Made by a program: the position numbers and the translations under genes. The notes beneath the pieces were generated by a model, which was not told the DNA's origin, searched no databases, and saw nothing but the letters and a program-made list of their open reading frames with translations. 42,799 bases of DNA from a virus, in IMG/VR virus record IMGVR_UViG_3300032246_000480, positions 1 to 42,799 of that record; one strand, 5' to 3'. Below, one piece after another: positions 15,535-39,652 of this stretch (the first letter of the stretch is position 1; each line of letters opens with the position of its first letter).

Positions 15535-16506
15535 ATGAATTTTAACCAAATACCTTTCCAAAATATTGTCCAATTCGGACAGCAAACTATGTTGGATCGT
15601 CCATTATTTAACATTAGTTGGATACTTGGGAGATTTTGTAATTATAATTGTAGCTATTGTTGGCCCTACGCTCGAAGCGACAAGTTAGACTATCAAAGTT
15701 TAGAAGTGTATAAGTCTACAGTCGATGAGATAAAGCGTCAAGCCAGATTAAACGGCTTTACCGAATTCCACTGGAGCTTTAGTGGCGGCGAGCCAACTGC
15801 TTACAAACAGTTACCAGAATTGGTAAAACACTTAGACGAACTTGAAAGCTCTTACCAAAGTATACACATGACAACCAACTTGAGTCCTGGATCAAAATGG
15901 TGGAACAATTGGTGTCGCAGTACAGAGCTATTACAACGCAGAAGCATTACTGCCAGCTTTCACGCAGAATTTGCTAAGGAACAAGAGTTTGGGGATAAAT
16001 GCTTACAGCTGATGTATGAGCGTGTTCATGTAACAGTTAATCAAGTAATGGTTCCAGAAAAGTTTTTTGAAACACTAGAACGCTGTGAACGTTTACGTGC
16101 TCGCGGTATTAATGTAACACTTAAACCACAAAGCAATGATACAGCTACAGCCGTGGTAGATGGGTACACTCCTGACATGATTACTATAATGCAAAATGAT
16201 TTTGAACAACAAGAAGGTTTTCAAATACGTTTGACAGATGGCGACCAGAATTACTTTATAGATCAAGCTGAGCGTTTCAATGCTTTAGGTTTTAATAAAT
16301 TTGAAGGTTGGGGTTGCAATGCAGGATATCAAAGTGTTATAATAAGAGGTACTGAAGTCAAACGTGCTTATAGTTGTAAGGAAAATAATATAGGAAATAT
16401 ACTCACTGGATTTGATTTGTTTAAAGAGCCTAAACCGTGCATTACTCCTACTTGTGTAAGTAGTGCAGACAGTAAGATTCCTAAAAGAAAAATAATTAAT
16501 GTTTAA
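15535..16506 (+). CDS. Radical SAM enzyme with C-terminal auxiliary-cluster cysteines
   Basis: 323 residues. The [4Fe-4S]-binding CNYNCSYC is at 35-42 and the SAM-binding GGEP at 84-87, both canonical. Toward the C-terminus Cys261 (WGCNAG), Cys281 (YSC), Cys302 and Cys307 (CITPTC) form a twitch or half-SPASM pattern for one auxiliary cluster. Enzymes of this build usually modify peptides or proteins, though not only those. It is related to 20872-21768. It is first in an operon of four radical SAM genes with overlapping ends. The substrate is unknown. Confidence 0.9.
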   Translation: MNFNQIPFQNIVQFGQQTMLDRPLFNISWILGRFCNYNCSYCWPYARSDKLDYQSLEVYKSTVDEIKRQARLNGFTEFHWSFSGGEPTAYKQLPELVKHLDELESSYQSIHMTTNLSPGSKWWNNWCRSTELLQRRSITASFHAEFAKEQEFGDKCLQLMYERVHVTVNQVMVPEKFFETLERCERLRARGINVTLKPQSNDTATAVVDGYTPDMITIMQNDFEQQEGFQIRLTDGDQNYFIDQAERFNALGFNKFEGWGCNAGYQSVIIRGTEVKRAYSCKENNIGNILTGFDLFKEPKPCITPTCVSSADSKIPKRKIINV

Positions 16507-17575
16507 ATTTTCCGAGTTACATCAAATACATTTAGAAATAACAAATAACTGCCAGGCTAGTTGCCCTATGTGTAGTCGCAATCACCACGGCGGTATCGAT
16601 AATCCCTTGATCAAAATTAATAGTTGGACTCTTGAACATTTTAGACACACAATAAATCAAGAAGTATTAGATCAAATTAATGCATTATACTTCTGCGGAA
16701 ACTTTGGAGATCCTTTATTGAATAATGATTTAATAGAGATGATTGAGTATGCTGTCGGTTATGCTCCTAGCATTGAAATCCGTGTGCATACCAATGGCAG
16801 TCTTCGTAATACCCAATGGTGGGAACGTCTTGCTCGTGCGATGCCAACAAATCATGTTGTGGTTTTTGCTATAGACGGTCTTGAAGATACACATGATTTA
16901 TATCGAATAGGCACCGACTACAATCAGATATTACGTAATGCCAGTGCATTTATCAAAGCAGGTGGAATAGCTGAATGGGCATTTATTAGATTCAAGCACA
17001 ATGCACATCAAGTAGATACTGCCAAAGCTATTGCAAGTGATTTGGGATTTCAACGTTTTGTTATGAAAGACAGCAGTAGGTTTGTACTAGACAGTAAATT
17101 TCCTGTGCTTGATAAAACAAGTAAAGTAACACACTATCTTGAACCAGCTAATGAAAGCAAAATTGTTTTCATTGATCGAAAGGTCCTTGACAACTATAAA
17201 CAAATAGTTGCGGCCAGCACTATCGATTGTTACGCACAGAAAAATAGAGAGATCTATATAGATGCATTTGGCAGAGTATTTCCCTGTTGCTGGCTAGCAA
17301 GTACTCCGTATAACTATACCGAAGACGAATCATCTATATTGGAAGTTCGCCAAGTGATGGTTGATCAATATAATAGTATGATAGCAGACTTTGGTGGAAT
17401 AGATAACATTGATACGCAATACTACAGCGTAAAATCTATTATAGATTCAGATGTTTATCAATCAGTTTGGGGCACTTACTGGTCAGATCCTAAAATGGTA
17501 ACCTGTGCCAGAGCTTGTGGAACCAACACACTAAGCAAACCAATTGATCAATTTACTGAAAGAGCAGAGCTATGA
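16499..17575 (+). CDS. Radical SAM/SPASM-like enzyme
   Basis: 358 residues with CQASCPMC at 18-25. The usual GGEP is replaced by GNFGDP at about 67-72, a variant seen in one branch of SPASM-type enzymes. C-terminal cysteines (IDCYAQ, FPCCWLAS, CARAC at 336-340) can hold auxiliary iron-sulphur clusters. The central TIM-barrel strands (VHTNGSL, VVFAIDGLEDTH) are typical. Its start overlaps the preceding stop by 8 bases and its stop overlaps the next ATG, so the products are made together. No target is evident. Confidence 0.9.
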   Translation: MFKFSELHQIHLEITNNCQASCPMCSRNHHGGIDNPLIKINSWTLEHFRHTINQEVLDQINALYFCGNFGDPLLNNDLIEMIEYAVGYAPSIEIRVHTNGSLRNTQWWERLARAMPTNHVVVFAIDGLEDTHDLYRIGTDYNQILRNASAFIKAGGIAEWAFIRFKHNAHQVDTAKAIASDLGFQRFVMKDSSRFVLDSKFPVLDKTSKVTHYLEPANESKIVFIDRKVLDNYKQIVAASTIDCYAQKNREIYIDAFGRVFPCCWLASTPYNYTEDESSILEVRQVMVDQYNSMIADFGGIDNIDTQYYSVKSIIDSDVYQSVWGTYWSDPKMVTCARACGTNTLSKPIDQFTERAEL

Positions 17576-18666
17576 TTGAAACAACAGCGATCCGTAACGC
17601 TTCTAATCAATCTTTTTCGGTAGTATGGGACACTGGCAGAAGATGTAACTACGATTGTTCGTACTGCGAATCTTCCAGACATAATAACACTAGCAACTTT
17701 AAAAGTCTAGACGAGTTTAAAAAAACTTTTGATTTTATACAATCGTGGGCTAACTTGTACAATTCTAATAGAAAAGAAGATACCCACACCAACATTAACT
17801 TTACAGGCGGTGAACCTACTGCCAATCCTAACTTTTGGGACTTGTTAGATTATATTAAATCACAACCGGAGTTTTATTATTTAGGATTGACTACTAATGG
17901 TGCATGGGGTGAAAACTATTCTAAAAAGATAGTCGAGTCAATTAACCATGTAACAATAAGTTACCATGCAGAAGCAGATCCTAAATTGAAAGAACGTGCT
18001 GTAAAAAATATTCTATTGTTGTCCGAAACAACTGTCCATTTGCAAGTTAATATAATGCTACATGCTGACCACTGGGAAGAAACAGTAGGTGTATATAACC
18101 AACTAAAAGCCAAAGGCATTGATGTCAAACCTCGTCCAATCGGAGACGGTGCAATTACACGTAAAGGTTGGTTTATTGATGCAGATGGAACTAATCGTAG
18201 AACTAGTCATGAATATACAGAAGAACAACAGGCCTGGTTCTGGAATGAAATGGGACTGCAAGGCAAACCTAAGGCAGTAGCTGATGGTAATCAAATAGGT
18301 CGTGCCTGCTGTGGTGGGCGTTGCTTAGAAGGTAAAGTCGACGGTGAGTGGCAACCTATTAAGTTAATTAATACTAATTTTGAAAAATGGAATTGCTTAG
18401 TTGATTGGTATTTCCTGTATGTTGATCAGGAAACAAATTTAGTATATCATCACCAAACATGCCAAGCATTGTATGGCGGTAAAAAAGGTCCTATTGGCAA
18501 TTTAGATGATAGCGAGCAGTTGCTTGAGGATTTAAAAATACGACTTGCTGATAAAGATAAATTTATAGTATGCCCTAACAAACGTTGTGGGTGCGGTATG
18601 TGTATACCAAAGGCACGTGATACTGAAGATTTTATTAAAATAAAAGAATCCATAATAGCACTATAA
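17572..18666 (+). CDS. Radical SAM enzyme with Cys-rich C-terminus
   Basis: 364 residues; CNYDCSYC at 25-32 and GGEP at 79-82. After the barrel come GRACCGGRCLEG, NCLVDW, HHQTCQ, then VCPNKRCGCGMCIPKA, about ten Cys in all, enough for one or two auxiliary clusters. The N-terminal part (VVWDTGRRCNYDCSYC) is close in style to the enzymes at 15535 and 20872, so these are paralogues with different tails. It is followed with a one-base overlap by an N-twitch enzyme; the same pairing occurs on the other strand at 20872-23023. Confidence 0.9.
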   Translation: MIETTAIRNASNQSFSVVWDTGRRCNYDCSYCESSRHNNTSNFKSLDEFKKTFDFIQSWANLYNSNRKEDTHTNINFTGGEPTANPNFWDLLDYIKSQPEFYYLGLTTNGAWGENYSKKIVESINHVTISYHAEADPKLKERAVKNILLLSETTVHLQVNIMLHADHWEETVGVYNQLKAKGIDVKPRPIGDGAITRKGWFIDADGTNRRTSHEYTEEQQAWFWNEMGLQGKPKAVADGNQIGRACCGGRCLEGKVDGEWQPIKLINTNFEKWNCLVDWYFLYVDQETNLVYHHQTCQALYGGKKGPIGNLDDSEQLLEDLKIRLADKDKFIVCPNKRCGCGMCIPKARDTEDFIKIKESIIAL

Positions 18667-20051
18667 TGTCAGATAAAATAAAAACCTACGTTAAGTTAAT
18701 CGAAGAGAAAACAGGAAGTCCGACCTTCTGTGCCTTGCCATGGATACATTTGGCTACCCGGCCAAACGGAGATGCTAGATTGTGCTGTGTTACTAATGCT
18801 AGCGGAGCGCATACAGGAGATCATACTGTAGGATTGGTTAAGAAAGAGGATGGCGAGCCTGCTAATTTTGGCCGCGAAACACCATTAGAAGCATTTAACA
18901 ACCAATATATGCGTAGTGTGAGATTAACCATGCTAGAAGGAAATGTTCCTGCTAGTTGTACAAAATGTTTCGAAGAAGAATCAAACGGAGTTGTAAGTAA
19001 ACGTTTGTGGGAAATGTATGAGTGGAATCGTGATGGCCTCGATTTCAATAAACTTATCAGTGACACTGATAGTACTGGTGCTGTTCCTCCTGTTATACGA
19101 TACTTGGATTTAAGACTCGGCCACACTTGCAATTTAAAATGCGTTATGTGTAGTCCGCATGATAGTAGTCGTTGGTTACAAGATTACGATAAGCTAGTAG
19201 AAAAAACTAAAAGCTCTATTGTTATAAAACAAATAAGTTTTGATAAACCATCATTTAATAACACATGGTACGAAAAGCCTGAATTTTGGGACGATGTATT
19301 TGAACAAATTCCTAACATCACGCAATTATACTTTGCTGGTGGCGAACCTTTGATGATTAAGGAACACAGGCGGTTCTTAGATGAAATCATTCGACGCGGA
19401 TACGCTAAAAATATTAGCCTGCGATATAATAGTAATGGTATATTTGTTAATGAAGATATCATTAATGTCTGGAGTCAATTTAAACAGGTACGTTATGCCT
19501 TTAGCATAGATGCAGTTATGGAACGCAATAATTATATTCGTTATCCTACAGAGTGGGCCGAGATAGAACGTAGCCTGTGGTTAATGGACAATGCTCCGGA
19601 CAACATTCATTGTGCAATAGCCTGTGCTGTCCAAGTATTCAATGTTAAACACATTATTGATTTCGCCAAATGGAAACTAACACAGGGCTTTAAGAAGATT
19701 AATAAATTTGCACTTGACGAATATGAAACAGGTGGCGGAATTATTAACTTACATTTATTGTATATTCCTACGTTCCTCAGTGCTAGAATACTACCCCAGA
19801 AAGATAAAGAAGAAATTGTACAACAGTTTGCCAATTTTAAACAATGGCTATGGGACAACTATAGACAAGACGATAATTTTTGGAAAGATAATCCCTACGG
19901 TTGGAAACGTTGGGAAGGCATTTTAAAATTTATACAAGCAGAGGATCATACACACCTATTGCCTGATTTTAAAGAATACGTTGTTAACTTAGATGCTATT
20001 CGTAATTTAAATGCTAAGGAAGTATTTCCTGAATTAGCAAATTTGTTATAG
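18666..20051 (+). CDS. Radical SAM enzyme with N-terminal twitch domain
   Basis: 461 residues. Unusually the auxiliary-cluster domain comes first: Cys22 (FCALPWIHLAT), Cys40-Cys41 (RLCCVTN), Cys98 and Cys101 (CTKC). The radical SAM core follows with CNLKCVMC at 155-162 and AGGEP further on. This N-terminal twitch layout is a recognised subfamily whose substrates are mostly unknown. It is paralogous to 21761-23023. The gene ends the first plus-strand operon; its stop overlaps the stop of the opposing SGNH-like gene by 6 bases. Confidence 0.9.
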   Translation: MSDKIKTYVKLIEEKTGSPTFCALPWIHLATRPNGDARLCCVTNASGAHTGDHTVGLVKKEDGEPANFGRETPLEAFNNQYMRSVRLTMLEGNVPASCTKCFEEESNGVVSKRLWEMYEWNRDGLDFNKLISDTDSTGAVPPVIRYLDLRLGHTCNLKCVMCSPHDSSRWLQDYDKLVEKTKSSIVIKQISFDKPSFNNTWYEKPEFWDDVFEQIPNITQLYFAGGEPLMIKEHRRFLDEIIRRGYAKNISLRYNSNGIFVNEDIINVWSQFKQVRYAFSIDAVMERNNYIRYPTEWAEIERSLWLMDNAPDNIHCAIACAVQVFNVKHIIDFAKWKLTQGFKKINKFALDEYETGGGIINLHLLYIPTFLSARILPQKDKEEIVQQFANFKQWLWDNYRQDDNFWKDNPYGWKRWEGILKFIQAEDHTHLLPDFKEYVVNLDAIRNLNAKEVFPELANLL

Positions 20052-20891
20052 TCTAACAATTTTTGCAGATTTAGATTCAAAAATATCTTTGTCTATTTTG
20101 CTTTCCCACAGTGGTCGCTCATGCGTTAATGCATACAGTCTTGCATTATTGCTTATGTTATTTCCGGGAAAAATTAAATCTAAATATTTTAAAATCTCAA
20201 AAGGTGTAGGATGCCCGTCTCCGTCATTGGGTCTTGGGTGAGCTTTATACTCTTTAGTGTCTTGCAGTACATTGAATACTGAAGGTTGTAATTTTAAAAA
20301 CACATTTTTGTAACAATTAATAACATCTCGATTTATGAATAAATCCGAAATAGCTCCTTGATGCAATGGTAATATTACTTCTTGATTCCAATCTGCCTCA
20401 CCGGATATGTACTGAGGTGCGGTAGCTTTAATTTTATCTAGATTGCCGTTAGCAAATGTGTTAATAGACATGTTAATCCAATCGCTGTCTAGTGTATCTA
20501 AAAATATTTGTGTTGCTTGTATTATTGCCAAATCGCGAATCATACAACCACGTTCGTCATAAAACTTCTTGACCCATTCTGTACCATATGTTTTTTCTAA
20601 ATTCGATCCGGGTGTTACAAGCCATTGATTATTGACATATCGGTCTTCTCGGTTCTTATTGCTCCACATTACTACAATTAAATCATCTTTAGTAAATGTA
20701 TGTTTATTATGCGCCTCCATAATAGCATTAAAAATATAAAGATTGCCAGCGCCGCCCCATCCCCAGTTTTCATAGTAAGGAATATCTACAGCAAGTATGT
20801 CGGCCCATGTTGGCCAGTAGTATCTTGTGAAACTACAACCAAAAGCAAATAGCCTTTTATAATTGGACGGATTAAGTGTTTTCTGGTGCAT
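20046..20891 (-). CDS. SGNH/GDSL-hydrolase-like protein
   Basis: 281 residues. Block I is FGCSFTRYYWP with Ser20 in place of the GDS serine; GGAGN at about 46-50 fits the block with the oxyanion Gly and Asn; near the end DGDGHPTPFEILKYL fits the catalytic Asp-x-x-His block. SGNH enzymes add or remove acyl groups on sugars and lipids. Together with its radical SAM neighbours it hints at a glycan or acyl substrate, but that is inference. It is last in its operon and overlaps the upstream stop by 20 bases. Confidence 0.7.
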   Translation of the reverse strand: MHQKTLNPSNYKRLFAFGCSFTRYYWPTWADILAVDIPYYENWGWGGAGNLYIFNAIMEAHNKHTFTKDDLIVVMWSNKNREDRYVNNQWLVTPGSNLEKTYGTEWVKKFYDERGCMIRDLAIIQATQIFLDTLDSDWINMSINTFANGNLDKIKATAPQYISGEADWNQEVILPLHQGAISDLFINRDVINCYKNVFLKLQPSVFNVLQDTKEYKAHPRPNDGDGHPTPFEILKYLDLIFPGNNISNNARLYALTHERPLWESKIDKDIFESKSAKIVRL

Positions 20892-21768
20892 ATTTACTTA
20901 ATGGAATGTCTGCCGCGCAGGTACAGAAATTACGGTCACAAGTTACGGGTTCGCTAGGTGCAACGAAGCTAGCTTCATATATGTTGCCTAGGCTACCACC
21001 GACTCTACAAGTCGCTCTGTGTACATCTCCGTCCCAATTTATCATTAGGCTTTCTATACCTGCGTTGCAAGTCCAACCTTTGTATTTGTTAAGATGCAGT
21101 TTTATTACATCGTTAGAGTGAATAACTTTTATGTCGTCGATTACACAATTACCTTCTACTGTGGCTTCTTGTTCCTTAAGCCAATTTAAATCATTTGCAT
21201 TATAACGCATATCATCAAACAAATCATGATCGCCTTCAGTCCATCGTATACGACGTATTGTGTTAGGAATTTGTGCTAACAGGCATCTAGCACGTAATTG
21301 TAATACAGCATCCATGTGATCGTGATGTGCCATAATCTGTGCTATAACTTTTTTGTTTGTTAAATCTACAACACTTTCTATAGTATTGAAAACACGCTTC
21401 CAATCAAACTCTAAATGTATGCTGAATACAATTTGATCTACCTCTATAACAGAATAGAATTCATAAGGAAGTGTGCCGTTCGTTGTTACACTAATCCAGC
21501 TAACACCTTTATGCTTGCAGTATTTTACTAGTTCTTGAAATTTAGGATGTACACACGGCTCGCCTCCAGTAAAGCTAAGACGTATAGGCTTACCTAGTGT
21601 TACAAGTTTGTCTACAGCACGTTTAAGTATTTCTATATCAGTATGCGGACTTGAATTGTCGTGTATACTTGCAGGGCAATAGCTACAATCGTAGTTACAA
21701 CGTTTCCCTAAGTTCCATTCAATTTTAATACTGCCTTGATGCGGCCATCTACTAGTAACTTTAAGCAT
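20872..21768 (-). CDS. Radical SAM enzyme, short, with C-terminal Cys motif
   Basis: 298 residues; CNYDCSYC at 24-31 and a TGGEP core. C-terminal WTCNAG, ATCRVG, VTCDRNFCTCAAD give a complete four- or five-Cys set for one auxiliary cluster; the ending CxCAADIPLSK is the usual close of this subfamily. It resembles the protein at 15535 along its length. Its ATG overlaps the end of the N-twitch enzyme upstream by 8 bases, so the two are probably made together. Confidence 0.9.
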   Translation of the reverse strand: MLKVTSRWPHQGSIKIEWNLGKRCNYDCSYCPASIHDNSSPHTDIEILKRAVDKLVTLGKPIRLSFTGGEPCVHPKFQELVKYCKHKGVSWISVTTNGTLPYEFYSVIEVDQIVFSIHLEFDWKRVFNTIESVVDLTNKKVIAQIMAHHDHMDAVLQLRARCLLAQIPNTIRRIRWTEGDHDLFDDMRYNANDLNWLKEQEATVEGNCVIDDIKVIHSNDVIKLHLNKYKGWTCNAGIESLMINWDGDVHRATCRVGGSLGNIYEASFVAPSEPVTCDRNFCTCAADIPLSKYAPENT

Positions 21769-23023
21769 AGGGTTTAAACTCCGGAGTTACATCAAAGAAA
21801 CTTTGATTACGTGTAACATCTAACCGGCGATTATATTCTATACAATCCTGCCATAAGTGTGTGTTGTCTTTTGCTAAGATAAAATTAATTATACCATCAA
21901 TCTGTTTATAAGTTAACGCTTCTAACATAGGATGTTCTTTTACTAATTTAAAAGTCGGAACTAATTCTCTAACAGCTTTTAATTTAATTACAGCAAGTGA
22001 TTTCAACTCATTAGGAATAACTTGTGCAGATAATACATTAGGATACTGTACCATGTTAGTATAAAATACAATGCCTAATTCATTAAGGAATAATTCAATC
22101 ATCTTATCTAGTATAAGCACATTGCTAACTTGCACAGCTACCGCACCTACTATACGACTTACATTAGGAATAGTTTGTACTTGTTTAATGTTATGCACTA
22201 GCTCTGCCCAACTAGCGTTACCGCGTACATATTCGTAACTATCACCAATGCCATCAATACTTACATTAACTGCAACACTTTTAAACTTAGGCCAGTATTG
22301 CCATACTGTACGATTACTTTTACCTAGCATAGTCAGGTTAGTAGCGTATTTAATTTCTATGTTATCGCCATATGGAGCAAGCATATCTAAGATACGATAA
22401 TGCTGTGGATCCATCAACGGCTCGCCGCCTGCAAATTCTACACGTCTAAAATACGGCAATAATTTTTCAAAACTTTTCCACCAGTTAGGATTATCGTCAA
22501 ATTTATCTAAGTAAGGTTTGTTCATTAGATTAAGATCTTCAATAGCCTTAACCATAAAGTTGTTTTCTTTAATATAAAATTCTTCTACTTCTTTCCAGTC
22601 ATTCCAGCTTGTACTATCCATTGGATGGCACATACGACATTTAAGATTGCATAAGTTATTAAGTTTAATTTCCATAGTGGGAAACTTAAACGGCATAGTC
22701 ATTTCAGGATGCAAATGCTCTAAAGTATCAGGATATAACGTAATACGAGATTCTGGAATGTTGTTTTTAATATGTCGTTGGCGTAAACTTTCAACGCCCT
22801 GATCTTCTAAATTGAAACATGGTGCGCACTCTGGCGGCCTTTCACCTGATAACACTTGCCCGCGAATCCTACGCATAGTGTCATTATTCCAAATATCTTC
22901 TAGTGTGTGGTCTTTTATATTACCAATAGGGTGGCTACGACAGCATACTTGGATAGCGCCATCTTCTCTAGTAGCAAGCCCGGTGAATGGGTGCATACAA
23001 AATGTTTTACTGTTCTGCAACAT
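21761..23023 (-). CDS. Radical SAM enzyme with N-terminal twitch domain
   Basis: 420 residues. Cys9 (FCMHPFTGLAT), Cys27-28 (QVCCRS), Cys66 and Cys69 (CAPC) form the leading twitch domain; the core motif CNLKCRMC is at 125-132 and FAGGEPL follows. The order and the FC..P......DG...CC pattern match 18666-20051, so the two are paralogues on opposite strands. The C-terminal 90 residues are helical without Cys. It overlaps the PLP-enzyme gene by 17 bases. Confidence 0.9.
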   Translation of the reverse strand: MLQNSKTFCMHPFTGLATREDGAIQVCCRSHPIGNIKDHTLEDIWNNDTMRRIRGQVLSGERPPECAPCFNLEDQGVESLRQRHIKNNIPESRITLYPDTLEHLHPEMTMPFKFPTMEIKLNNLCNLKCRMCHPMDSTSWNDWKEVEEFYIKENNFMVKAIEDLNLMNKPYLDKFDDNPNWWKSFEKLLPYFRRVEFAGGEPLMDPQHYRILDMLAPYGDNIEIKYATNLTMLGKSNRTVWQYWPKFKSVAVNVSIDGIGDSYEYVRGNASWAELVHNIKQVQTIPNVSRIVGAVAVQVSNVLILDKMIELFLNELGIVFYTNMVQYPNVLSAQVIPNELKSLAVIKLKAVRELVPTFKLVKEHPMLEALTYKQIDGIINFILAKDNTHLWQDCIEYNRRLDVTRNQSFFDVTPEFKPYA

Positions 23024-23855: not shown

Positions 23856-23859
23856 CTTT

Positions 23860-32100: not shown

Positions 32101-32701
32101 TGAACATATTGCAGAGATATATTCGTCTCACGTATTAAGCCATATACCCAATTACTCAGCAGTATTAGATTTATCATGCGACATAGCTAGCGATCTATTA
32201 GACTCTGATGCTGTTATATGCGATTTTGGCAGTGCAAACGGAAATACTTTAAAAAAGTTATCCAGCAGAAATTTTAAAAATTTATACGGTGTTGAAATTA
32301 ATCAAGCAATGATAGATAAGTCTACTACAGATAAGTTTAAAATTTCTAGTACACTACCAGATATTAAATTTGATTATATTATTGCCAATTGGTCTTTACA
32401 CTTTAATCAGAACAAAGAAGAAATTCTAAAAAATATATTTGATAGATTACAAGATAATGGGATATTTTTACTATCGGAGAAAGTTTCTTTGGATAGCTAC
32501 GCTATAAAAAAATATCACGATTGGAAAAGAAACCAGGGCGTGTCTAGCATAGAAATAAAACAAAAAGAAGAAGCATTGATTGGTGCTATGTTTATCGACA
32601 ATGCACAATGGTACCTGGATACTCTTAAAAAAGTAGGTTTTAAAAATATCGAAATAGTTAATTCGTACTGGTGTTTCTGTACATTCTTTTGTAGGAAATA
32701 A
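32087..32701 (+). CDS. Class I SAM-dependent methyltransferase-like protein
   Basis: 204 residues from the ATG at 32087, chosen over an upstream start that would lie deep within the preceding gene. The core is CDFGSANGNTLKKL (45-58), LYGVEINQAMIDKS, DYIIANWSLHF and NGIFLLSEKV, in the order of small-molecule or tRNA-modifying methyltransferases such as the CmoA/TehB type. The Phe-Gly-Ser-Ala-Asn glycine loop is slightly atypical. Confidence 0.8.
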   Translation: MWKFDEHIAEIYSSHVLSHIPNYSAVLDLSCDIASDLLDSDAVICDFGSANGNTLKKLSSRNFKNLYGVEINQAMIDKSTTDKFKISSTLPDIKFDYIIANWSLHFNQNKEEILKNIFDRLQDNGIFLLSEKVSLDSYAIKKYHDWKRNQGVSSIEIKQKEEALIGAMFIDNAQWYLDTLKKVGFKNIEIVNSYWCFCTFFCRK

Positions 32702-32706
32702 CTGCT

Positions 32707-33261
32707 ATGTACAAAATGATCATTTGGGATCCTGACTTAGACCTGGCGGACTTTTATTCTACGGCTAGTACTAAAGGTTTTGTAAATAATGCTAGTCAGA
32801 AAATGCTAGTAGATAGCCTAGCCAAAGAGAAAGAATGGTGCGTGTGGATTCTTTACTATAACAATCGAGCCGTAGGTAGTGTGGCCGCACACAGTTTTCC
32901 AGAAATGGGCGATAACTGTTATCGTATAGCCGCACGTACTTGTGTTTTCAGCGATATGTTACCAATGGATACACTACGCACGAAAAATCAGATTGTAACA
33001 CATCAGCACATTACAAGTCAGTTTTTAATACCAGCTTGTATTGAATGGGCACCAAAAGGCAGTAAGTTGTTTATCACTAGTAATGAAAGTAGTACAGGAA
33101 CGCAACGGCTTGTTCATAGAATATTTGGGCCCGCAATGGAAGCTAGTGGCCAAATGCAACGTGTTAAAAAAATGCTATACAGAGGAACAGAACAAACTGT
33201 GTGGCAGTTATATCCTGAAAAGTTTTACGAAGAGCTAGCAAAACATAAAAGGTGGGGATAG
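32707..33261 (+). CDS. GNAT-acetyltransferase-like protein
   Basis: 184 residues. The central strand pair CVWILYYNNRAVGSVAAHSF followed by YRIAARTCVF resembles the beta2-beta3-beta4 meander of GNAT enzymes, and a helix after TSNESSTGTQ could be the acyl-CoA pyrophosphate loop, though the Q/RxxGxG/A motif is not clear. If real, it would acylate an amine or hydroxyl of the island's product. An AGGAA ribosome site precedes it. Confidence 0.5.
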   Translation: MYKMIIWDPDLDLADFYSTASTKGFVNNASQKMLVDSLAKEKEWCVWILYYNNRAVGSVAAHSFPEMGDNCYRIAARTCVFSDMLPMDTLRTKNQIVTHQHITSQFLIPACIEWAPKGSKLFITSNESSTGTQRLVHRIFGPAMEASGQMQRVKKMLYRGTEQTVWQLYPEKFYEELAKHKRWG

Positions 33262-34007
33262 TGGATTTAGATTATATTAGTATAGACGGAATTAGCATCG
33301 GCTTGTATAAAAACGGGCCTGTTGGTGTTGGCGTTAGTGGTGGTGCCGATAGTGCTGTCCTGTTATATATTTTAATGTCAAATATTAAAAATCATATACA
33401 CATTTATAATATGATGGCCGAATGGCGTCGACCTACTTTAGAAAAACACTTTGATGCTGTAGTCGCTATGTGTTCAAAACTTAGCGGAAATACCAATTAC
33501 ACTATACATAAGACTTATGTAGAACCGGACGAATCAGCAGAATTTTATATCAATATGTTAACAGTAGCACTAGACAGCAAAGAAGTAGATATCGTGTATC
33601 TAGGACTAACTAAGTTTCCTCCAGAAACAGAATGGTCTACATGGCCAGGACAACAGCCCGAGTGGCATAATAAGTTTAGGTCAGATGAAACAGAGCATCC
33701 ATTGTTTGGGTTTAGTATTCCTGTAGAAGTTGCTACAGATTTTTCACAAGTTCCCCTTACAACTGACGGAAGGATAGTTGATAAATTAACACTAGATAGT
33801 CGTGCTTATATTCCATTGTTTAATCATAACAAACAACATATAGCAAAGCTATATAGAGCATTGGGCGTTGAAAATACCTTACTACCGGTAACCCGAAGTT
33901 GTGAAAACGATAAACATCCAGGGTCTCATTGTAAAACGTGTTGGTGGTGCTATGAGAGACGTTGGGGTTTTGGCTATGTTGAAAGCAAGGATGAAAATGG
34001 ATTATAA
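33261..34007 (+). CDS. QueC-like PP-loop ATP pyrophosphatase
   Basis: 248 residues from the GTG at 33261, which overlaps the previous stop (TAGTG) and has AAGGTGG upstream; a GTG three codons earlier is possible. The PP-loop GVSGGADS is at 24-31. The C-terminus carries Cys214, Cys224, Cys227 and Cys230 (SCEN...HCKTCWWCYERR), the zinc site of QueC, which converts carboxy-deazaguanine to the nitrile preQ0 using ATP and ammonia. No other deazapurine gene (QueD, QueE, FolE) is here, so it may adenylate a different carboxylate. Confidence 0.8.
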   Translation: MDLDYISIDGISIGLYKNGPVGVGVSGGADSAVLLYILMSNIKNHIHIYNMMAEWRRPTLEKHFDAVVAMCSKLSGNTNYTIHKTYVEPDESAEFYINMLTVALDSKEVDIVYLGLTKFPPETEWSTWPGQQPEWHNKFRSDETEHPLFGFSIPVEVATDFSQVPLTTDGRIVDKLTLDSRAYIPLFNHNKQHIAKLYRALGVENTLLPVTRSCENDKHPGSHCKTCWWCYERRWGFGYVESKDENGL

Positions 34008-35442
34008 TATTAAAAAAGAGAAAAAGTTAGTTTATTGTGTTTTAGATAATATTGATAACCAGTCTGGAACATATTCTAAAGAAATAGCAAGGAACATTAG
34101 CGACTTCTTTCTTTCAATGCTACTGAATAAAAATTACGATATAATAATTAACAGTGATTCGGACAGTCTATTAAGACGTGCATCTCGGGATGAGTTTTAT
34201 TCCCATGCAGTTGTTGTAATAACAGGCACACATCCTGGACTAACTGAAAATATCATCAAGTCTGTTGAAACCAAATGTAAAGAACATTTTACAGTAGCAG
34301 GGCATATACTTGAACGCGGTGATGCATATTACGAAATACATGATCAATTCTTTATTGTAAATTTACAAGAGTATAGAAGACTAGGATGCCCGGATATGGG
34401 GCAAGTATCGTGGAATGAAAATCATACTAAAATAGAACCTGTGCGTAGCGAAGAATGTGTCCAGGGCGATAGCGAAATTCCAGTATGGATTAAACAAGGT
34501 ACAACAGAACGGGTGTATAAACATAAACGTCATGGTTGGAATTTTATCGAACACGGTTTAAAAAATAATGCAATATTCTGTGATGTAGGAGATGATATTC
34601 GTAATAATAAAAAATATTTTTATTATGAATATGATCATGTATTTTTTAGAAGCTCTCCTGAACTGTTTAACTATGCATTGATATGTAACACTATGGTTAC
34701 TCCGTGGAACAGTGATAACTTACCTAAACATATATCTATTACCGAAGGTAAGCTAGATCATTTCGTTACAACAGGAACAGGATTAAATTGGGTACATAGT
34801 ATAACTAGATTAGGATACCACGAAGCTACAAAAATAACATTTATAGATATTAGTTATACTGTATTGAGTTTCATGAAAGCATTAGTAGAAGATTGGGACG
34901 GTACCGACTATGCAACTTTTTACATGAAACAATTAAAATTTGTACCTAACAAATATCATTTAGATTTAATTAATCACGAGCGTAGGATAAGAGACTGGTT
35001 TGCAACCTTTGAAACAGAATTTGATACCTTTCAGGAAACTTGGAACAAAGTTAAACAATTAAAATTTGATTTTGTTTTAACAGATCTGTTTGCTAATAAC
35101 GATTTTTCTTTTATACAGCCTAATGAATCTACACTAGTAAATGTTAGTGATGCTTTTAATCATGTACCATATGCACATTTTTCTCCTGTAAATTTTAGAG
35201 TGGCTAGAGAAAACGCTTTTATAAATCAATTAAAAAAGATAAATCCAGATATCTGGTTATATACCCCTTCAAGACTAGGTCACATATATCAACCAATTTT
35301 ATCAGAACACGAAAAAATTAAATTTGGCAGAGTTGGTGATTTTAATCTTTGGGATATAAATGAATTTAATGCGCCGCCTTGGCAAACATCAAATTGGCGT
35401 AGCTATTGTCCTATAACTGGTGCAGTAAGGATATTACAATGA
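33997..35442 (+). CDS. Large unknown protein with a methyltransferase-like Rossmann region
   Basis: 481 residues from the ATG at 33997, which has AAGGA five bases before it. The first 90 residues (LVYCVLDNIDNQSGTYSKEI ... VVVITGTHPGL) look like one alpha/beta domain. Near residue 250-300, TTGTGLNWVHSITRLG then KITFIDISYTVLSFM resembles SAM-binding motifs I and II, and FDFVLTDLFANND fits motif IV. The whole architecture is unknown to me. It overlaps the QueC-like gene by 11 bases and feeds the AspH-like gene by ATGA. Confidence 0.7.
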   Translation: MDYNIKKEKKLVYCVLDNIDNQSGTYSKEIARNISDFFLSMLLNKNYDIIINSDSDSLLRRASRDEFYSHAVVVITGTHPGLTENIIKSVETKCKEHFTVAGHILERGDAYYEIHDQFFIVNLQEYRRLGCPDMGQVSWNENHTKIEPVRSEECVQGDSEIPVWIKQGTTERVYKHKRHGWNFIEHGLKNNAIFCDVGDDIRNNKKYFYYEYDHVFFRSSPELFNYALICNTMVTPWNSDNLPKHISITEGKLDHFVTTGTGLNWVHSITRLGYHEATKITFIDISYTVLSFMKALVEDWDGTDYATFYMKQLKFVPNKYHLDLINHERRIRDWFATFETEFDTFQETWNKVKQLKFDFVLTDLFANNDFSFIQPNESTLVNVSDAFNHVPYAHFSPVNFRVARENAFINQLKKINPDIWLYTPSRLGHIYQPILSEHEKIKFGRVGDFNLWDINEFNAPPWQTSNWRSYCPITGAVRILQ

Positions 35443-36086
35443 GAGATTATTTTCAATCCGCCGGTCGCTATTTAAAATTAGACATACCGTTACCCTATAA
35501 TGAAATGCTAGCAGAAGCATTTGCGCTTATAGATAACTTTACGCCGCATCGCGGAGGAGACTACGGGCATCAAGGATGGGAAAGTTTGACTATACATGGC
35601 CTTGGATGGGATAAGCACGAAAACTGGAGTGACTACGGATACAAGAAAGGTAAAGATGCCAGCAACGACTATGTATGGACAGAAATTGCAGATCTGTGTC
35701 CTGTCACAACCAAGTGGCTTAAAGAAGTATTTCCTTGTAAAAAATACGGACGTATCAGATTTATGTTGTTACGTGCTGGAGGTAGTATTGCTTTACACAA
35801 TGACTCTAGTATGAAGCTAATTGAAAATATTAACGTTGCACTAAACAACCCTGTAGGGTGCAAATGGATATGGGGAGACGGCGAAGAATTAATTATGGAG
35901 CAAGGAGGAGTGTATGCTATGAATTTAGGATATGATCATAGTGTTGTTAATACTAGTAATCAAGACCGTATGCACATAATCATAGCAAGGCACGACGGAC
36001 TCGATGAATGGAAAGAACTTATTAACGATGCGGCCCTAAAACAAAACATTACCGGCGAATATATTGTCATCGACGACTTGCCTTAA
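35439..36086 (+). CDS. Aspartyl/asparaginyl beta-hydroxylase-like oxygenase
   Basis: 215 residues from the ATG in the ATGA overlap at 35439. The C-terminal half is a clear AspH-type core: His120-x-Asp122 (ALHNDSSMKL), the NINVALNNPVGCKW strand, His167 (DHSVVNTSNQDR) and Arg177 for 2-oxoglutarate. Such enzymes hydroxylate Asp or Asn in proteins or free amino acids. It is last in the third plus-strand operon and its stop shares the palindrome TTAA with the stop of the opposing TauD-like gene. Confidence 0.82.
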   Translation: MRDYFQSAGRYLKLDIPLPYNEMLAEAFALIDNFTPHRGGDYGHQGWESLTIHGLGWDKHENWSDYGYKKGKDASNDYVWTEIADLCPVTTKWLKEVFPCKKYGRIRFMLLRAGGSIALHNDSSMKLIENINVALNNPVGCKWIWGDGEELIMEQGGVYAMNLGYDHSVVNTSNQDRMHIIIARHDGLDEWKELINDAALKQNITGEYIVIDDLP

Positions 36087-36940
36087 TTTTTATAATCTTG
36101 CTCAGGAAAATCCCACGCTCCTCGATGTAATAACCGTCCTTCAATTTCTTCAAATTCCCATCGCTTGTGAATTCCTAACCATTGTTCTGTTAGAATAACA
36201 TCGCCGTCTTCCCAGTCATGATGGTAACAAAATTTTTCTTGTATAGTATAGGGAGCAAGCCAGTCCATAATTTCTCTGCTTTGCTCCTCCGGTAGCCCTT
36301 CAAATCCTGATATTTGCAAGAATGGAAAATACATTCCTTTTTTGCCAGCAATATTTTCCATTACTAGACTAGGACAGTAATCGTCTATACGGGCACTGCC
36401 GTCTTCTTCATCTTCGCGTAACGATACATTTTTTAACACAGTTAATTTTAACGGATCTAGTAATCGCTTTTTATCTTCATCGAGTTCTTCGTAAGACATA
36501 ATATTATTATTCCAGGATGTTCTTGAACCTCTAGAACCTTTTACACTATATAACCATACTATGGGCCTGCGATCAGGAGTAGTTTGGTCATTTGAATGCC
36601 AATGCATCTCACTTGCATGGCCAGCGATTCCCGGTAATCCATCTTCGTTAAGCTCAGCAGTTACTCTTAGGAATAATCGATCAGCTCCTGGAATCTCGCA
36701 ACCTTTAAAATTATAGTCAGGGCTTGTTTCGTCGTCGTGATAAAATCTTTGCGGATTTTTGAACATTTCGGCAACTCGAACTTCATCTTTAATAGTTAAT
36801 TGTTGATTCCTTGCAACTACTAGCGTATTAGACGCTATCAATCTTGCTATATGATTAATGTCATCTTGTGTAGCTGTGCTAAAATCAAAATCTTCTAATA
36901 TTACGGTCCAGCCGTTTTCGTGTATATTATACTTTACCAT
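36083..36940 (-). CDS. TauD/TfdA-like dioxygenase homologue with Asn in place of the metal Asp
   Basis: 285 residues, paralogue of 29639-30493 (both start with .....ENGWTVI and share PIVWL/PIIWL and KRW). The metal site reads MHWHSNDQT: His115 then Asn117 where TauD has Asp, with Asp118 next door. Distal His (GIHKRWEF) and the 2OG-binding Arg (LLHRGAWDFPE) are kept. Whether Asp118 can take over the ligand role is not known. It overlaps the SDR-like gene by 14 bases and ends the last minus-strand operon of the island. Confidence 0.8.
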   Translation of the reverse strand: MVKYNIHENGWTVILEDFDFSTATQDDINHIARLIASNTLVVARNQQLTIKDEVRVAEMFKNPQRFYHDDETSPDYNFKGCEIPGADRLFLRVTAELNEDGLPGIAGHASEMHWHSNDQTTPDRRPIVWLYSVKGSRGSRTSWNNNIMSYEELDEDKKRLLDPLKLTVLKNVSLREDEEDGSARIDDYCPSLVMENIAGKKGMYFPFLQISGFEGLPEEQSREIMDWLAPYTIQEKFCYHHDWEDGDVILTEQWLGIHKRWEFEEIEGRLLHRGAWDFPEQDYKN

Positions 36941-37487
36941 GTTGCACCTTTAATTGTTCTTCCATCTCTTTATCATTTATCTTCTCTATACCAATGATGG
37001 GAATATTTACTTTTGACCCTAAGACATATTTTATAGCGTTGACGATTTCCTCTGGATCCATTCTATCCGGATGTAATGAAGTTGAGTCTTGAAAACCGCC
37101 TGCTACGATATGTGTAGTTTTAAAAAATTCAGAACATAAATTTAAACTAGCTTCACGTAAATTTCGTTTTTCATTAGTATAATCAACATCGTACCACTCC
37201 CAGCGTTTATGTTCTGCTATACTTCCAATATTGAATACATGCCCTTGCATACCCGCCTCATATGCTATACGTAATAGAGTTTCTTGTGAGCTGTTTGATA
37301 ACTGGGCGACATTAACAAATACGTTAAAATCTTTTATTATATTTCTAAATGCCTGTTGTCCGTTTTTATGTGTTAAATCATATCCGTTTGATAACGATAC
37401 AAATGTTGTATCAGGAAAACTTTTATAGATAGCGTTAGGAATTCCTGCCTTGCTTGGATTTCCTGTACATATGATTTTATAATCCAT
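36927..37487 (-). CDS. SDR-like NAD(P) oxidoreductase, short
   Basis: 186 residues, shorter than the usual 250. The nucleotide-binding turn is TGNPSKAGIPNAI (T8-G9 ... G15-I16), NVAQLSNSS fits the NNAG region, and Ser89 with Tyr103-x-x-x-Lys107 (DYTNEK) gives the catalytic Ser-Tyr-Lys set. The substrate-binding end is reduced. It could oxidise a hydroxyl placed by one of the neighbouring oxygenases. It overlaps the gene upstream by 11 bases. Confidence 0.7.
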   Translation of the reverse strand: MDYKIICTGNPSKAGIPNAIYKSFPDTTFVSLSNGYDLTHKNGQQAFRNIIKDFNVFVNVAQLSNSSQETLLRIAYEAGMQGHVFNIGSIAEHKRWEWYDVDYTNEKRNLREASLNLCSEFFKTTHIVAGGFQDSTSLHPDRMDPEEIVNAIKYVLGSKVNIPIIGIEKINDKEMEEQLKVQHGKV

Positions 37488-38235
37488 TTAATTTATCTTT
37501 AAATTTATCAGTAAATGTTCCATCTATTCTAAATGAATAAGAAGGCTTTAATACTGGATCGCCGCCATGATAATCCTGATCATTCCAATATGCTACTCTA
37601 GTGTTTATATAAATTTTTTCTAAAGTTTCTGAATCGCGAACATAAAATGGTCTATCTATGTTTAATCTTACATGAATAAATTCGCTAGTTACATCTGGAT
37701 TCTCAGGATCTAGAGACGGATCGTGATGTTCAAATGACACGCCACCCGCTTCTTGTACAAAAAATGTAGCTCTTCCTATATGAGAAAATACTTGTTGTTC
37801 TATAAGATCGTTGATCCAGGAAATAACTCCTGGAAAATAATCTGCTAATGGTTTTTTTGATATCATCTCTGGATTCGTTCTCCAGCCCTCTTCAAAATCA
37901 CAAATTACATAAAACGAATACAAATCATAACCGCCCAGTGCAAATTTTAGATATTTGACAAGATCGTTCTCTATTAAATCTTTGCCGTTTGCTTTGATAG
38001 CATGATCGTCTGGAAGTTTTGCAAATTCATTATATGCTTCAAATAACATTTTAAACTGATTGTTATAAACTTTTAAGTTAAGATATTCTTCCGGTGCGTA
38101 TAACATTCCACATGGTGCGATATGCTTTGCAATAGCAAATCCTCTGCATATCTCTGGATGTAATCTATCGAATCCTGCAAGATCTACTATGCTAGATAAA
38201 TCAATATATGGATGGCCTTGGATACCCTTAATCAT
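37477..38235 (-). CDS. Putative non-haem iron oxygenase, island family (member B)
   Basis: 252 residues. Family blocks in order: PYIDLSSIVDL, YLKFALGGYDLYSFY, YFPGVISWI, GGVSFEHHDP with His170-x-Asp172, FIHVRLNIDRPFYVRD, NTRVAYWNDQDYHGG with His223, and FRIDGTFT with Arg236. Members B, C and D lie in tandem and share more with each other than with member A at 27798, which indicates recent local duplication. The start overlaps the member C stop by 4 bases. Confidence 0.65.
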   Translation of the reverse strand: MIKGIQGHPYIDLSSIVDLAGFDRLHPEICRGFAIAKHIAPCGMLYAPEEYLNLKVYNNQFKMLFEAYNEFAKLPDDHAIKANGKDLIENDLVKYLKFALGGYDLYSFYVICDFEEGWRTNPEMISKKPLADYFPGVISWINDLIEQQVFSHIGRATFFVQEAGGVSFEHHDPSLDPENPDVTSEFIHVRLNIDRPFYVRDSETLEKIYINTRVAYWNDQDYHGGDPVLKPSYSFRIDGTFTDKFKDKLNGL

Positions 38236-38924
38236 TTTTTGAATATATCCTTTCTAAATGACTCAGTAAATACTCCATCTATCCGTATTGAATAAGATGG
38301 TTTGTACACCGCGTCCCCTCCGTGCCTATCTTGATCATGCCAATACGCAACTCGTGTATCGATATAATATTTTTCATTGTTTGTAGAATCTCTCACATAA
38401 AAAGGTCGATCTAAATTAGGTCTAATATGCACAAACTCACTTGGCTTTGATATGTCTTTATCGTCTACCGGTGGATGATGATGTTCGAATGCAATACCTC
38501 CCGCATCTAAAGTCATTATATATGCATCGCTTATGGATTGGAATATGTGGATCTGATTAATCCACTCTAACAATTCCGGAAAATATTGTTCAAATAAATT
38601 TTTGTGATATGTTACATATAAGTCGTATCCGCCCAGTGCATATTTTAGATAAGTAGCTAGTTGATTAGTATCAAAAGTCCTACCATTTATTTTAATATCA
38701 TGTGTGCTAGGTAATTCTTTAAACTCTCGATACGATTCTATTAAAGGTTTAAAATTGTATTCGTTTAAATCTAAATTGCTCATCGCAAGTTCTAAGTTGC
38801 CTACTTGTGCCAGGTGCTTTGCAAGAGCGATTCCTTTAAAAATGTTTGGCTGTAATTCGTCAAACAATTCTATATCTACATAATCAGATATATCTATGTA
38901 AGGTTGACCTCCGATTCCCTTCAT
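38232..38924 (-). CDS. Putative non-haem iron protein, island family (member C), triad altered to HHH
   Basis: 230 residues, closest in style to member B. The block that reads FEHHDP in B is FEHHHPP here, so the Asp of the metal triad is replaced by His150; the codon is CAT, one base change from GAT. His148, His201 (DRHGG) and Arg214 (IRIDG) are kept. A three-His site is found in cysteine-dioxygenase-type cupins, so the activity may have changed. It is contiguous with members B and D. Confidence 0.65.
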   Translation of the reverse strand: MKGIGGQPYIDISDYVDIELFDELQPNIFKGIALAKHLAQVGNLELAMSNLDLNEYNFKPLIESYREFKELPSTHDIKINGRTFDTNQLATYLKYALGGYDLYVTYHKNLFEQYFPELLEWINQIHIFQSISDAYIMTLDAGGIAFEHHHPPVDDKDISKPSEFVHIRPNLDRPFYVRDSTNNEKYYIDTRVAYWHDQDRHGGDAVYKPSYSIRIDGVFTESFRKDIFKK

Positions 38925-39652
38925 TATTTCTTTCCTAAGATTTTACTTTTAAATTCTTCAGTAAAATCTCCATCGATTCTGAATGTATAAGTTGGTTTAG
39001 AGATCGGTTCGCCGCCATGCCAATCTCGTTCGTTCCACCACGAAGCTCGAGTGTTTATATATGTTTTGTCTTTAGATATTGGATTGATAAGATAAAACGG
39101 TCTATCAAGGTCTGTTTTTATGTGTACAAATTCCGGAACTGAATTGATATTTTCTATTTTATCAACCGGGTCATAATGCTCGAAAGGAATACCACCTGCT
39201 TCTAATAGAAAGAATGTAGCGCCATGTATGTTTTTAAATATAGGGCCTTTCAGACCTGTTACCCATTTTATTATATTAGGAAAATACTCGGCAACATCAC
39301 CTAGCACGATGTCTTCCTTGCAATTTTCAAATAATACATACCGTGAATACAAGTCGTATCCACCAAATGCATATTTTAGATAGGTTGTGAGTTGATTGTA
39401 GTCGAGCCCCTGGGCCGATAGTTTAAGTGGATCAGTATCAGGTAAGGATTGTAATTCTTTATATGCTTCATACAAAGGTTTGAAATCACCTGTACTAATC
39501 GAGCCATCATTAATTATATGCGATCCATCAATGATTAGATGGTTAGCTTTGACAAACCCTGCGCATATTTCTGCGTGTAGTTCGTCATATGATTTCAAAT
39601 CTATGTGATCTTCTAAATCTATGTAAGGTGAATAATTTATGCCAGTTATCAT
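38924..39652 (-). CDS. Putative non-haem iron oxygenase, island family (member D)
   Basis: 242 residues, first gene of the last minus-strand operon. It holds the family blocks YLKYAFGGYDLYSRY, YFPNIIKWV, GGIPFEHYDP (His159, Asp161), FVHIKTDLDRPFYL, NTRASWWNERDWHGG (His212) and FRIDGDFT (Arg226), with an additional acidic stretch near 110-120. Its ATG is the predicted +1 of a late octamer five bases upstream. The conserved ..YIDLEDHIDL start and DELHAEICAGF helix recur in all members. Confidence 0.65.
   Translation of the reverse strand: MITGINYSPYIDLEDHIDLKSYDELHAEICAGFVKANHLIIDGSHIINDGSISTGDFKPLYEAYKELQSLPDTDPLKLSAQGLDYNQLTTYLKYAFGGYDLYSRYVLFENCKEDIVLGDVAEYFPNIIKWVTGLKGPIFKNIHGATFFLLEAGGIPFEHYDPVDKIENINSVPEFVHIKTDLDRPFYLINPISKDKTYINTRASWWNERDWHGGEPISKPTYTFRIDGDFTEEFKSKILGKK

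Follow-up and report, generated by a model that had tools for sequence, protein, structure and literature searches.

The stretch of viral DNA analysed here, which we call the window (positions 1 to 42,799 of IMG/VR record IMGVR_UViG_3300032246_000480, 42,799 nucleotides), contains next to a tail-fibre gene a 24 kb block with about 28 genes, and 18 of these encode radical or hydroxylating iron enzymes. Eleven related IMG/VR contigs carry 8–15 radical SAM genes each, and twelve gene families are present in all 12 contigs (the window and its 11 relatives; fractions of 12 below refer to this set), with flanking genes common to several. The phages that carry this island apparently operate a pathway of chemical modification not described before, and this pathway most likely decorates the virus particle. 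The initial annotation had thought so dense a set unlike any standard phage module; a dense phage island near tail-fibre genes is indeed present, but radical SAM-rich regions of T4-like phages have been mentioned previously (PMC5332604, PMC7029224).

Radical SAM enzymes and oxygenases

Genes were called radical SAM when their products scored above the Pfam Radical_SAM cut-off and contained a CxxxCxxC motif. The eight that had been named from the letters alone all pass, and a second search returned the identical eight. These are proteins of 323 amino acids (F14; 15535..16506, +; Pfam Radical_SAM 48.9 bits; 11/12 contigs), 358 amino acids with a weak SPASM match (F03; 16499..17575, +; 39.3 bits; 12/12), 364 amino acids with a Cys-rich C-terminus (F39; 17572..18666, +; 44.1 bits; 4/12) and 298 amino acids (F08; 20872..21768, -; 48.5 bits; 12/12); the N-terminal-twitch protein F07 (18666..20051, +; 386.8 bits) and the N-terminal-twitch/SPASM protein F09 (21761..23023, -; 337 bits), both members of NCBIfam NF033640 (cut-off 170) and both in 12/12 contigs; F05, which has a degenerate B12-binding-like N-terminus (24556..26097, +; Pfam 44.5 bits; 11/12); and F01, with an HMPTM/Tes-type N-terminal zinc ribbon (28582..29679, -; Pfam 48.6 and 45.6 bits). 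Within each family the motif is conserved in all members or in most of them. The closest NCBIfam model to F05 is the PhpK P-methyltransferase, at a score below its cut-off. F01 shares both its zinc ribbon and its radical SAM core with the Tes/HMPTM methyltransferases, and its best PDB match is Tes (E 5.5e-18), but it is shorter (365 versus 486 amino acids), and it was rejected as a tetraether synthase at 72.9 bits against an NCBIfam cut-off of 450; its TrsS score is also under the NCBIfam cut-off. When compared with NCBIfam peptide-maturase models, every radical SAM protein tested from the window stayed below the cut-off.

Ten oxygenase-like genes had also been proposed, and all ten are supported: two belong to the TauD family, four are aspartyl-hydroxylase-like and four form a new 2OG-oxygenase family. 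The canonical His triad is present in nine, and the tenth, 38232, has H-x-H. Both TauD genes (F02) score above cut-off (29639..30493, -, 89.3 bits; 36083..36940, -, 67 bits), as does the aspartyl/asparaginyl beta-hydroxylase gene F30 (35406..36086, +; Asp_Arg_Hydrox 43.1 bits). F10 (23828..24559, +) gives a sub-threshold Asp_Arg_Hydrox score of 18.8 bits and is linked by hhalign to F53 and F12; F12 (26732..27277, +; 12/12 contigs) is in turn linked to F00 (27271..27798, -; 12/12) at 99.6%, and the F00, F12 and F10 families all have profile-profile links to one another or to the Asp_Arg_Hydrox family. For 35406, 23828 and 26732, which are longest open reading frames, 35439, 23894 and 26786 are reasonable alternative starts. 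The hallmark gene of the island is F04 (27798..28604, -), whose paralogues lie at 37477..38235 (-; 40% identity over the full length, HxD...H kept), 38232..38924 (-; H-x-H in place of H-x-D) and 38924..39652 (-); none of the four has a Pfam match. Compared with the PDB, an AlphaFold model of the 27798 product (pLDDT 81) finds 2OG oxygenases with probability 1.00 and E 1e-4, at TM-scores of about 0.3–0.4, and it also matches viral Asp/Asn/Pro hydroxylases. The HxD and distal His are found in 69–70 of 70 members of F04, F00, F12 and F10 (70/70 in F10 and F12) and in all readable members of F30. By their DSBH fold and HxD...H motif the F04 proteins are predicted members of the 2OG-Fe(II) oxygenase superfamily, with weak TM-scores and with 38232 deviating.

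Accompanying genes

The island should be taken to include the methyltransferase-like gene F06 (13886..14476, -; Rossmann/SAM-like motif by eye, no Pfam match; 12/12 contigs), as it lies within the block in several relatives. Several other labels of the initial annotation are plausible. These are the SGNH-hydrolase-like F40 (20046..20891, -; GCSFT motif by eye; 4/12 contigs; no match in Pfam or NCBIfam), the fold-type-I PLP-enzyme-like F18 (23007..23855, -), the SDR-like F23 (36927..37487, -; YTNEK, a YxxxK motif, by eye; no family match), and two methyltransferase genes, F41 (31255..32100, +; Methyltransf_12, sub-threshold) and a class I enzyme (32033..32701, +; Methyltransf_23 55.2 bits). F18 matches no Pfam or NCBIfam family; its PLP-type motifs, the SLSKGLGLGWNRIG lysine motif and the HVDGAW aspartate, are kept in eight homologues. 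F29 (33901..35442, +) is a conserved protein with a methyltransferase-like GTGLNW motif and no family match. F15 (32707..33261, +; 11/12 contigs and 194 viral contigs) had been called GNAT-like, a label left unconfirmed by Pfam and PDB profile searches, which recognised no fold in it.

Two genes labelled kinase-like do have the kinase fold, but they lack catalytic residues and look inactive as kinases. F11 (26101..26793, +) matches PDB kinases by profile and F13 (hhalign 99.9%), and F13 (30562..31251, +) has an AlphaFold model (pLDDT 92) that Foldseek matches to kinases with probability 1.00. With sites placed by motif and secondary structure, F11 lacks the catalytic Asp and keeps only the DFG Asp, and F13 has Ser, Ser and Asn where the HRD Asp, the Asn and the DFG Asp are expected. 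Both were rejected as active protein kinases on the HRD Asp/DFG Asp criterion, and we refer to them as pseudokinase-like.

The supposed QueC-like gene F35 (33252..34007, +), which is related to F32, encodes a PP-loop ATPase with a C-terminal Cys4 and is not an authentic QueC (23.6 bits against an equivalog cut-off of 150.3). This bears on the idea that the island hypermodifies the bases of virion DNA as a protection of the genome against host nucleases. Radical SAM and PLP enzymes act in some phage thymidine hypermodification pathways, and TET/JBP-type 2OG enzymes work on DNA, so the gene content has precedents; moreover, the relatives G004 and G013 have a thymidylate-synthase-family gene. This gene is of ambiguous synthase type and lies away from the island in these two of four contigs, the family being absent from the island-bearing G012 and G005 (contigs that may be incomplete), and QueC is absent from all four. 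Genes for a nucleotide kinase, a glycosyltransferase or a DNA-binding protein are absent from the island, which lies beside tail fibres, away from replication genes. We consider DNA hypermodification very improbable.

Recurrence and inheritance of the island

Beyond the eleven relatives, 12 further large contigs have 7–17 radical SAM genes, and relatives of F04 occur in 407 viral contigs. In 59 long loci, a sample picked for close F04 relatives, the core is regularly present (F13 in 57, F15 in 56 and F11 in 55). A search of 84,980 genomes of bacteria and archaea yielded only two distant F04 matches, both part of a short cassette that also encodes an ATP-grasp/ornithine-decarboxylase fusion, and 27798 found no paralogue match among 50,697 named phages. 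The island thus recurs with its flanks and is nearly absent from cellular genomes, which speaks against a host locus; it is neither a chimera nor a scatter of homologues. Distances among island genes correlate with those of F04 or F09 (r 0.24–0.70, P about 0.003) and are uncorrelated with those of the flanking metallophosphatase (P 0.12). Values of dN are 0.07–0.45, against dS of about 0.9–2.3 or saturated; judged from motifs and dN/dS, the island enzymes are under selection.

Co-inheritance of the island as a module is the best explanation of these observations. Accessory genes do differ greatly from contig to contig, and this region of T4-like phages is described as hypervariable (PMC7029224), as might be expected if unrelated auxiliary metabolic genes had gathered separately in a permissive region and had no common product. 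That idea is disfavoured, and twelve families in 12/12 contigs, correlated core-gene distances and the core in the 59 loci chosen for close F04 relatives make it improbable.

A conserved core with variable tailoring genes is also what might make a small diffusible product (a ribosomal peptide, nucleoside or amino-acid-derived metabolite) directed against competitors or the host. PLP, PP-loop and methyltransferase genes are at hand in the island, one PDB structure akin to the oxygenases is that of a beta-hydroxylase that serves a nucleoside antibiotic pathway, and the two cellular F04 relatives sit in the short cassette noted above. In proteusin RiPP clusters (polytheonamide, for example) many radical SAM and hydroxylase genes tailor one polypeptide. 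The island differs from RiPP clusters in that no precursor, leader or transport genes were found in it and no peptide-maturase model passed its cut-off. The initial annotation saw no precursor peptide, and neither did our limited scan, which covered Cys/His-repeat cores only; no NRPS/PKS or immunity gene was seen. Such a product also fits poorly with a gene set almost confined to phages, and we think it quite unlikely.

The tail-fibre edge and the proposed role

The carriers are large T4-like phages, most of them uncultured; among named phages, the Rak2-like jumbo phages are closest to them. A phage marker in the window, a ClpP-like head maturation protease gene (3663..4253, -; PHROG 94, 177 bits), is nearest to those of the Rak2-like group, with 66–69% identity to Agrobacterium phage Atu_ph07 and Sinorhizobium phage Phosso. 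At the edge of the island lies a gene for a tail-fibre/receptor-binding protein with an Mtd_N-like N-terminus (39687..40691, -; 21.9 bits, cut-off 26.3), which is a candidate substrate; its homologues at the matching edge score above the Mtd_N cut-off. Beyond it is the metallophosphatase gene (40813..41418, -; Pfam search), a flank common to relatives. The expectation that the gene set would recur beside tail fibres was borne out by the 11 further contigs with their shared flanks: by our reading, all eight contigs that reach the edge have a tail-fibre gene there; the Mtd_N match passes the Pfam cut-off in four of them, falls short in two and is missing in 3300027892_001207. In the large relative G012 the edge has the metallophosphatase and no recognised fibre, and the G004 island has a nearby fibre-like gene that lacks Mtd_N. 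In G004, G012 and G013, twitch radical SAM and glycosyltransferase-like genes adjoin fibre-like proteins in the corresponding place beside a giant structural gene, and the fibre-side cluster of G013 also has a NodU-type carbamoyltransferase gene.

The island is thus a variable region adjoining fibre or receptor-binding genes, as is the pelagimyophage tail-fibre "host recognition cluster", in which radical SAM cassettes have been reported (PMC7029224). That cluster of pelagi- and cyanomyophages is likewise hypervariable, lies beside T4-like tail fibres and shares with the island radical SAM cassettes, aspartyl/asparaginyl hydroxylases and receptor-binding domains including Mtd; as described (PMC7029224), however, it is rich in glycosyltransferase/LPS genes, whereas the island has no glycosyltransferase and has a recurring core with 8–15 radical SAM genes and several oxygenases per contig. 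Pfam searches found no glycosyltransferase in the window island; a glycosyltransferase-like family (F55, by motif only) borders the island in three relatives and also occurs in second clusters. The T4-like marine genome TARA_ERS488813_N000010 has a similar load of 12 radical SAM genes (PMC5332604), but, compared by description, these are listed only as Fe-S proteins and no oxygenase core or island is described. KVP40-like Vibrio phages (for example, K566), the closest named-phage matches to 21761 (22.8%) and 18666, have, like the island, a run of several twitch-type radical SAM genes, but with glycosyltransferase-like genes intermixed and no 2OG core.

Cultured phages offer a further analogy. 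In the related jumbo phages Atu_ph07 and Phosso, radical SAM genes and a gene for a cupin/JmjC oxygenase-like protein lie beside virion genes and surround a protein ending in CH(S/T)SCHASCH(N/S)SRSRR. It is probably a virion protein, being encoded by the first gene of a virion-protein cluster defined by mass spectrometry (CDS 170–215; PMC6102473). These phages differ from the island in having fewer radical SAM genes (about four or five) and an evident C-terminal (CHxS)3 protein, and their cluster matches no island family at E 1e-5, so the relationship is one of analogy rather than homology. In the island contigs the limited scan for Cys/His repeats found no precursor-like tail, and no core motif is obvious in the neighbouring fibre.

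From position and these analogies, our leading though tentative reading, to which we give a little less than even weight, is that the island is a host-recognition-region module that covalently modifies a component of the virion surface. As a C-H-functionalisation module it would belong to the tail-fibre region of T4-like phages that are near the Rak2-like jumbo phages. Its conserved core of radical SAM enzymes (F08, F09, F07, F03, F01, F05) and oxygenases (F04, F00, F10, F12), with the pseudokinase-like pair F11/F13, F15 and often the PLP enzyme, would perform several successive radical and hydroxylation reactions, and variable tailoring genes would diversify the product. So many radical SAM genes and several oxygenases per contig require many modification sites, which favours a protein or polymer substrate; the product would be a covalent decoration, most likely on the adjoining tail fibre/adhesin or its glycan, that may tune or shield receptor binding.

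A position beside fibres also fits modification of the host surface (LPS/O-antigen or outer lipids) during infection, which would block superinfection or change the receptor, as has been proposed for GT8 genes of the pelagimyophage region (PMC7029224). F01 resembles the lipid enzyme Tes, the closest F05 models include lipid- and hopanoid-associated enzymes, and TauD and SGNH-like genes are present. But none of the matches to Tes, ladderane or hopanoid models reaches its curated cut-off, the window island has no glycosyltransferase, nucleotide-sugar or lipid-A genes, and it is not obvious why a brief change of the host should call for so many enzymes that oxidise C-H bonds; we judge this reading unlikely. 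Returning to virion decoration, a bolder and rather doubtful version is a virus-exclusive post-translational pathway distinct from RiPP biosynthesis and glycosylation, in which the pseudokinase pair would organise 8–15 radical SAM enzymes and several 2OG oxygenases that rewrite the chemistry of a full-length adhesin, and tailoring genes swapped between phages would alter receptor or immune recognition.

About eight families of radical SAM enzymes are represented in the island, together with several of oxygenases, of which one (that of F04) lacks a Pfam entry; they would add new enzymes for C-H functionalisation. Atu_ph07 and Phosso are in culture and encode a CHxS-tailed protein amid radical SAM genes, so the general idea can already be tested in them. 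If it is correct, a pathway of radical chemistry with no counterpart found in named phages is encoded on hundreds of phage contigs from the environment, the radical SAM genes of T4-like phages repeatedly logged as "auxiliary metabolic genes" would be explained, and phages would chemically remodel their own particles far past glycosylation.

Recurrence of the island and its carrier phages

A search with the radical SAM protein 28582 (genes are named by start position) recovered eleven viral contigs in which the gene set recurs in a different arrangement, with 8–15 radical SAM genes in every one; by gene calling, twelve protein families of the island are present in 12 of 12 contigs, and another three are found in 11 of them. 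Twelve further large contigs have 7–17 radical SAM genes each. Alignment searches found relatives of the oxygenase-like protein 27798 in 407 viral contigs and of 32707 in 194. Among 59 long loci (20-kb windows, chosen for closeness to the 27798 family), the families of 30562, 32707, 26101, 26732 and 28582 occur in 57, 56, 55, 52 and 49, respectively. The same alignment that was used for the viral search with 27798 found just two relatives, of about 30% identity, in 84,980 cellular genomes. The initial annotation had named a chimeric contig or a host locus as findings that would count against the island. It is not a chimera or misassembly, since the island and both flanks recur jointly in contigs from several metagenomes, and it is not a host locus, since phage genes surround it and only those two distant cellular relatives exist. 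The latter lie in short cassettes (L251:9623-13482 and L250:295-4012) of Pyrinomonadaceae and Sphingomonas metagenome-assembled genomes, which also hold an ATP-grasp_Ter/ornithine-decarboxylase fusion and a third protein without assigned identity; this cassette is possibly an undescribed bacterial pathway.

The sequence distances of the island's genes correlate with one another (P ~0.003, the floor of 300 permutations; n 17–23), whereas they do not correlate with those of the metallophosphatase flank (n 17–23), and pairwise dN is far below dS, a comparison in which dS is near saturation and only the direction is meaningful. That the island is a loose collection of genes appears very unlikely.

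The ClpP-like head protease of the window is 66–69% identical to its counterparts in Agrobacterium phage Atu_ph07 and Sinorhizobium phage Phosso, which are jumbo phages of 469–490 kb, and the baseplate wedge protein of a 186-kb relative best matches those of Rak2-like/CBB/PBECO4 phages (33–35%). The gene at the island's edge is tail-fibre-like; its receptor-binding N-terminal domain, Mtd_N, passes the cut-off in four contigs and falls just short in the window and in one further contig. In tblastn searches of named phages, 28582, 33901, 38924, 24556 and 30562 had no match, and 21761 and 18666 had matches in Vibrio phages and a single marine record but nowhere else. An 83-kb relative encodes a DAHP synthase (L044:4982-5857; Pfam 237 bits), unusual as a phage gene, and a 270-kb relative has, by sequence motif, QueE-like radical SAM and ThyX-like genes away from the island (G012:104643-105494 and G012:109757-110422). 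No RNA elements or tRNA genes were found within the window, an IMG/VR virus record of 42,799 bases.

Enzymes encoded by the island

All eight genes initially annotated as radical SAM enzymes (15535, 16499, 17572, 18666, 20872, 21761, 24556 and 28582) score above the Pfam Radical_SAM cut-off, and 18666 and 21761 also exceed the NCBIfam cut-off for N-terminal-twitch radical SAM proteins. The zinc ribbon of HMPTM/Tes enzymes is present in 28582, with a score far under the Tes cut-off, and 24556 resembles B12-type enzymes, PhpK being nearest, under cut-off. The assignment of ten oxygenase-like genes is supported by family matches and links; 38232 has HxH in place of the iron-binding HxD. Above cut-off there are two TauD members and one Asp_Arg_Hydrox member; one further gene is a sub-threshold Asp_Arg_Hydrox match, and two more are tied to families of these types by profile-profile comparison. 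The remaining four, 27798 and its tandem paralogues 37477, 38232 and 38924 (35–49% identical), form a family without a Pfam entry. An AlphaFold model of 27798 (pLDDT 81) matches 2-oxoglutarate (2OG) oxygenases in the PDB and Asp/Asn/Pro hydroxylases in a viral library, nearly all top matches having probability near 1, yet low TM-scores. Nearly all members of the oxygenase families retain the iron motif; the HxH paralogue (38232-38924) may have an altered iron site or be an inactive copy.

The kinase-like genes 26101 and 30562 do have the protein-kinase fold, but both have lost the catalytic Asp; 30562 lacks the Asn and DFG-Asp as well, although other residues in it are invariant. This pattern makes a scaffold or binding role more likely than phosphorylation. 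The two genes (26101-26793 and 30562-31251) are widely conserved and form a predicted phage pseudokinase pair. Judged by motif, 23007 resembles fold-type-I PLP enzymes, and the initial annotation had listed a PLP gene; the supposed QueC-like gene 33252 encodes a PP-loop protein that is not QueC, and a queuosine pathway is rejected. The GNAT-like label of 32707 is tentative, as no Pfam or PDB profile matches it, and 33901 likewise has no family match. Kept beside the island in six contigs is a small protein (15014-15376) that has a segment resembling a signal peptide and, close to its C-terminus, an HExxHC motif; it could be a tiny secreted metalloprotein.

Radical SAM loci elsewhere and the possible substrate

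In the cultured phages Atu_ph07 and Phosso, a protein of about 300 amino acids (L220:13119-14009, Atu_ph07 gp170; L221:12415-13335, Phosso) lies among radical SAM genes together with a cupin/JmjC gene and has a C-terminal (CHxS)3-RSRR tail, ending CH(S/T)SCHASCH(N/S)SRSRR. In Atu_ph07, gp170 is the first gene of a virion-protein cluster defined by mass spectrometry (CDS 170-215; PMC6102473). The tail resembles a core of the RiPP type carried by what is probably a virion protein, and one radical SAM neighbour of gp170 is nearest the DynA/PapB/DarE peptide maturases, under cut-off. Other named phages have no homologue of the CHxS protein. These radical SAM genes are an analogy to the island and not orthologues of it; by tblastn neither the CHxS protein nor the radical SAM proteins around it have homologues in the island contigs, and only the adjoining structural proteins gp176 and gp177 do. 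A precursor scan of the island contigs (CH-repeats, Cys/His-rich C-termini) returned just frame artefacts, Zn-type PP-loop protein ends and radical SAM proteins.

Three related contigs, G004, G012 and G013, have second loci (G004:37740-48924, G012:110412-118933 and G013:12102-26760), at the place that corresponds to the gp170 locus, in which twitch radical SAM and, by motif only, glycosyltransferase-like genes adjoin the gp176/gp177 homologues and a giant structural protein; G013 adds a NodU-type carbamoyltransferase. GT-A/GT8-like genes lie directly beside the fibre-like and giant structural genes, and G013 has SGNH-like genes. The likeness to the island is again an analogy, and the genes are not its orthologues. 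Vibrio phage K566 has five twitch-type radical SAM genes amid glycosyltransferase-like genes and a Tyr/Gly/Ser-rich protein (L022:19956-38604).

The position beside the tail fibres, the jumbo-phage CHxS locus and these second loci point to the particle as target, and the island's substrate may, at slightly below an even chance, be a component of it. The number of distinct C-H-oxidising enzymes would favour a polymer substrate. Modification of the host surface is unlikely, and a diffusible product seems a shade less probable again; modification of DNA is the least probable.

Earlier descriptions and meaning

Radical SAM-rich T4-like genomes are already on record (TARA_ERS488813_N000010 has 12 such genes; PMC5332604), as are radical SAM cassettes in the host recognition cluster beside the tail fibres (PMC7029224). 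The papers found, from a search outside whose scope lay preprints and many subscription papers, do not describe the island as a system; we found no description of a radical SAM/2OG module that is this dense and has a conserved core, of the new oxygenase family, of the pseudokinase pair or of their near-exclusively viral distribution. There is a modest chance, well short of even, that the island would represent a new kind of virion-modification pathway.
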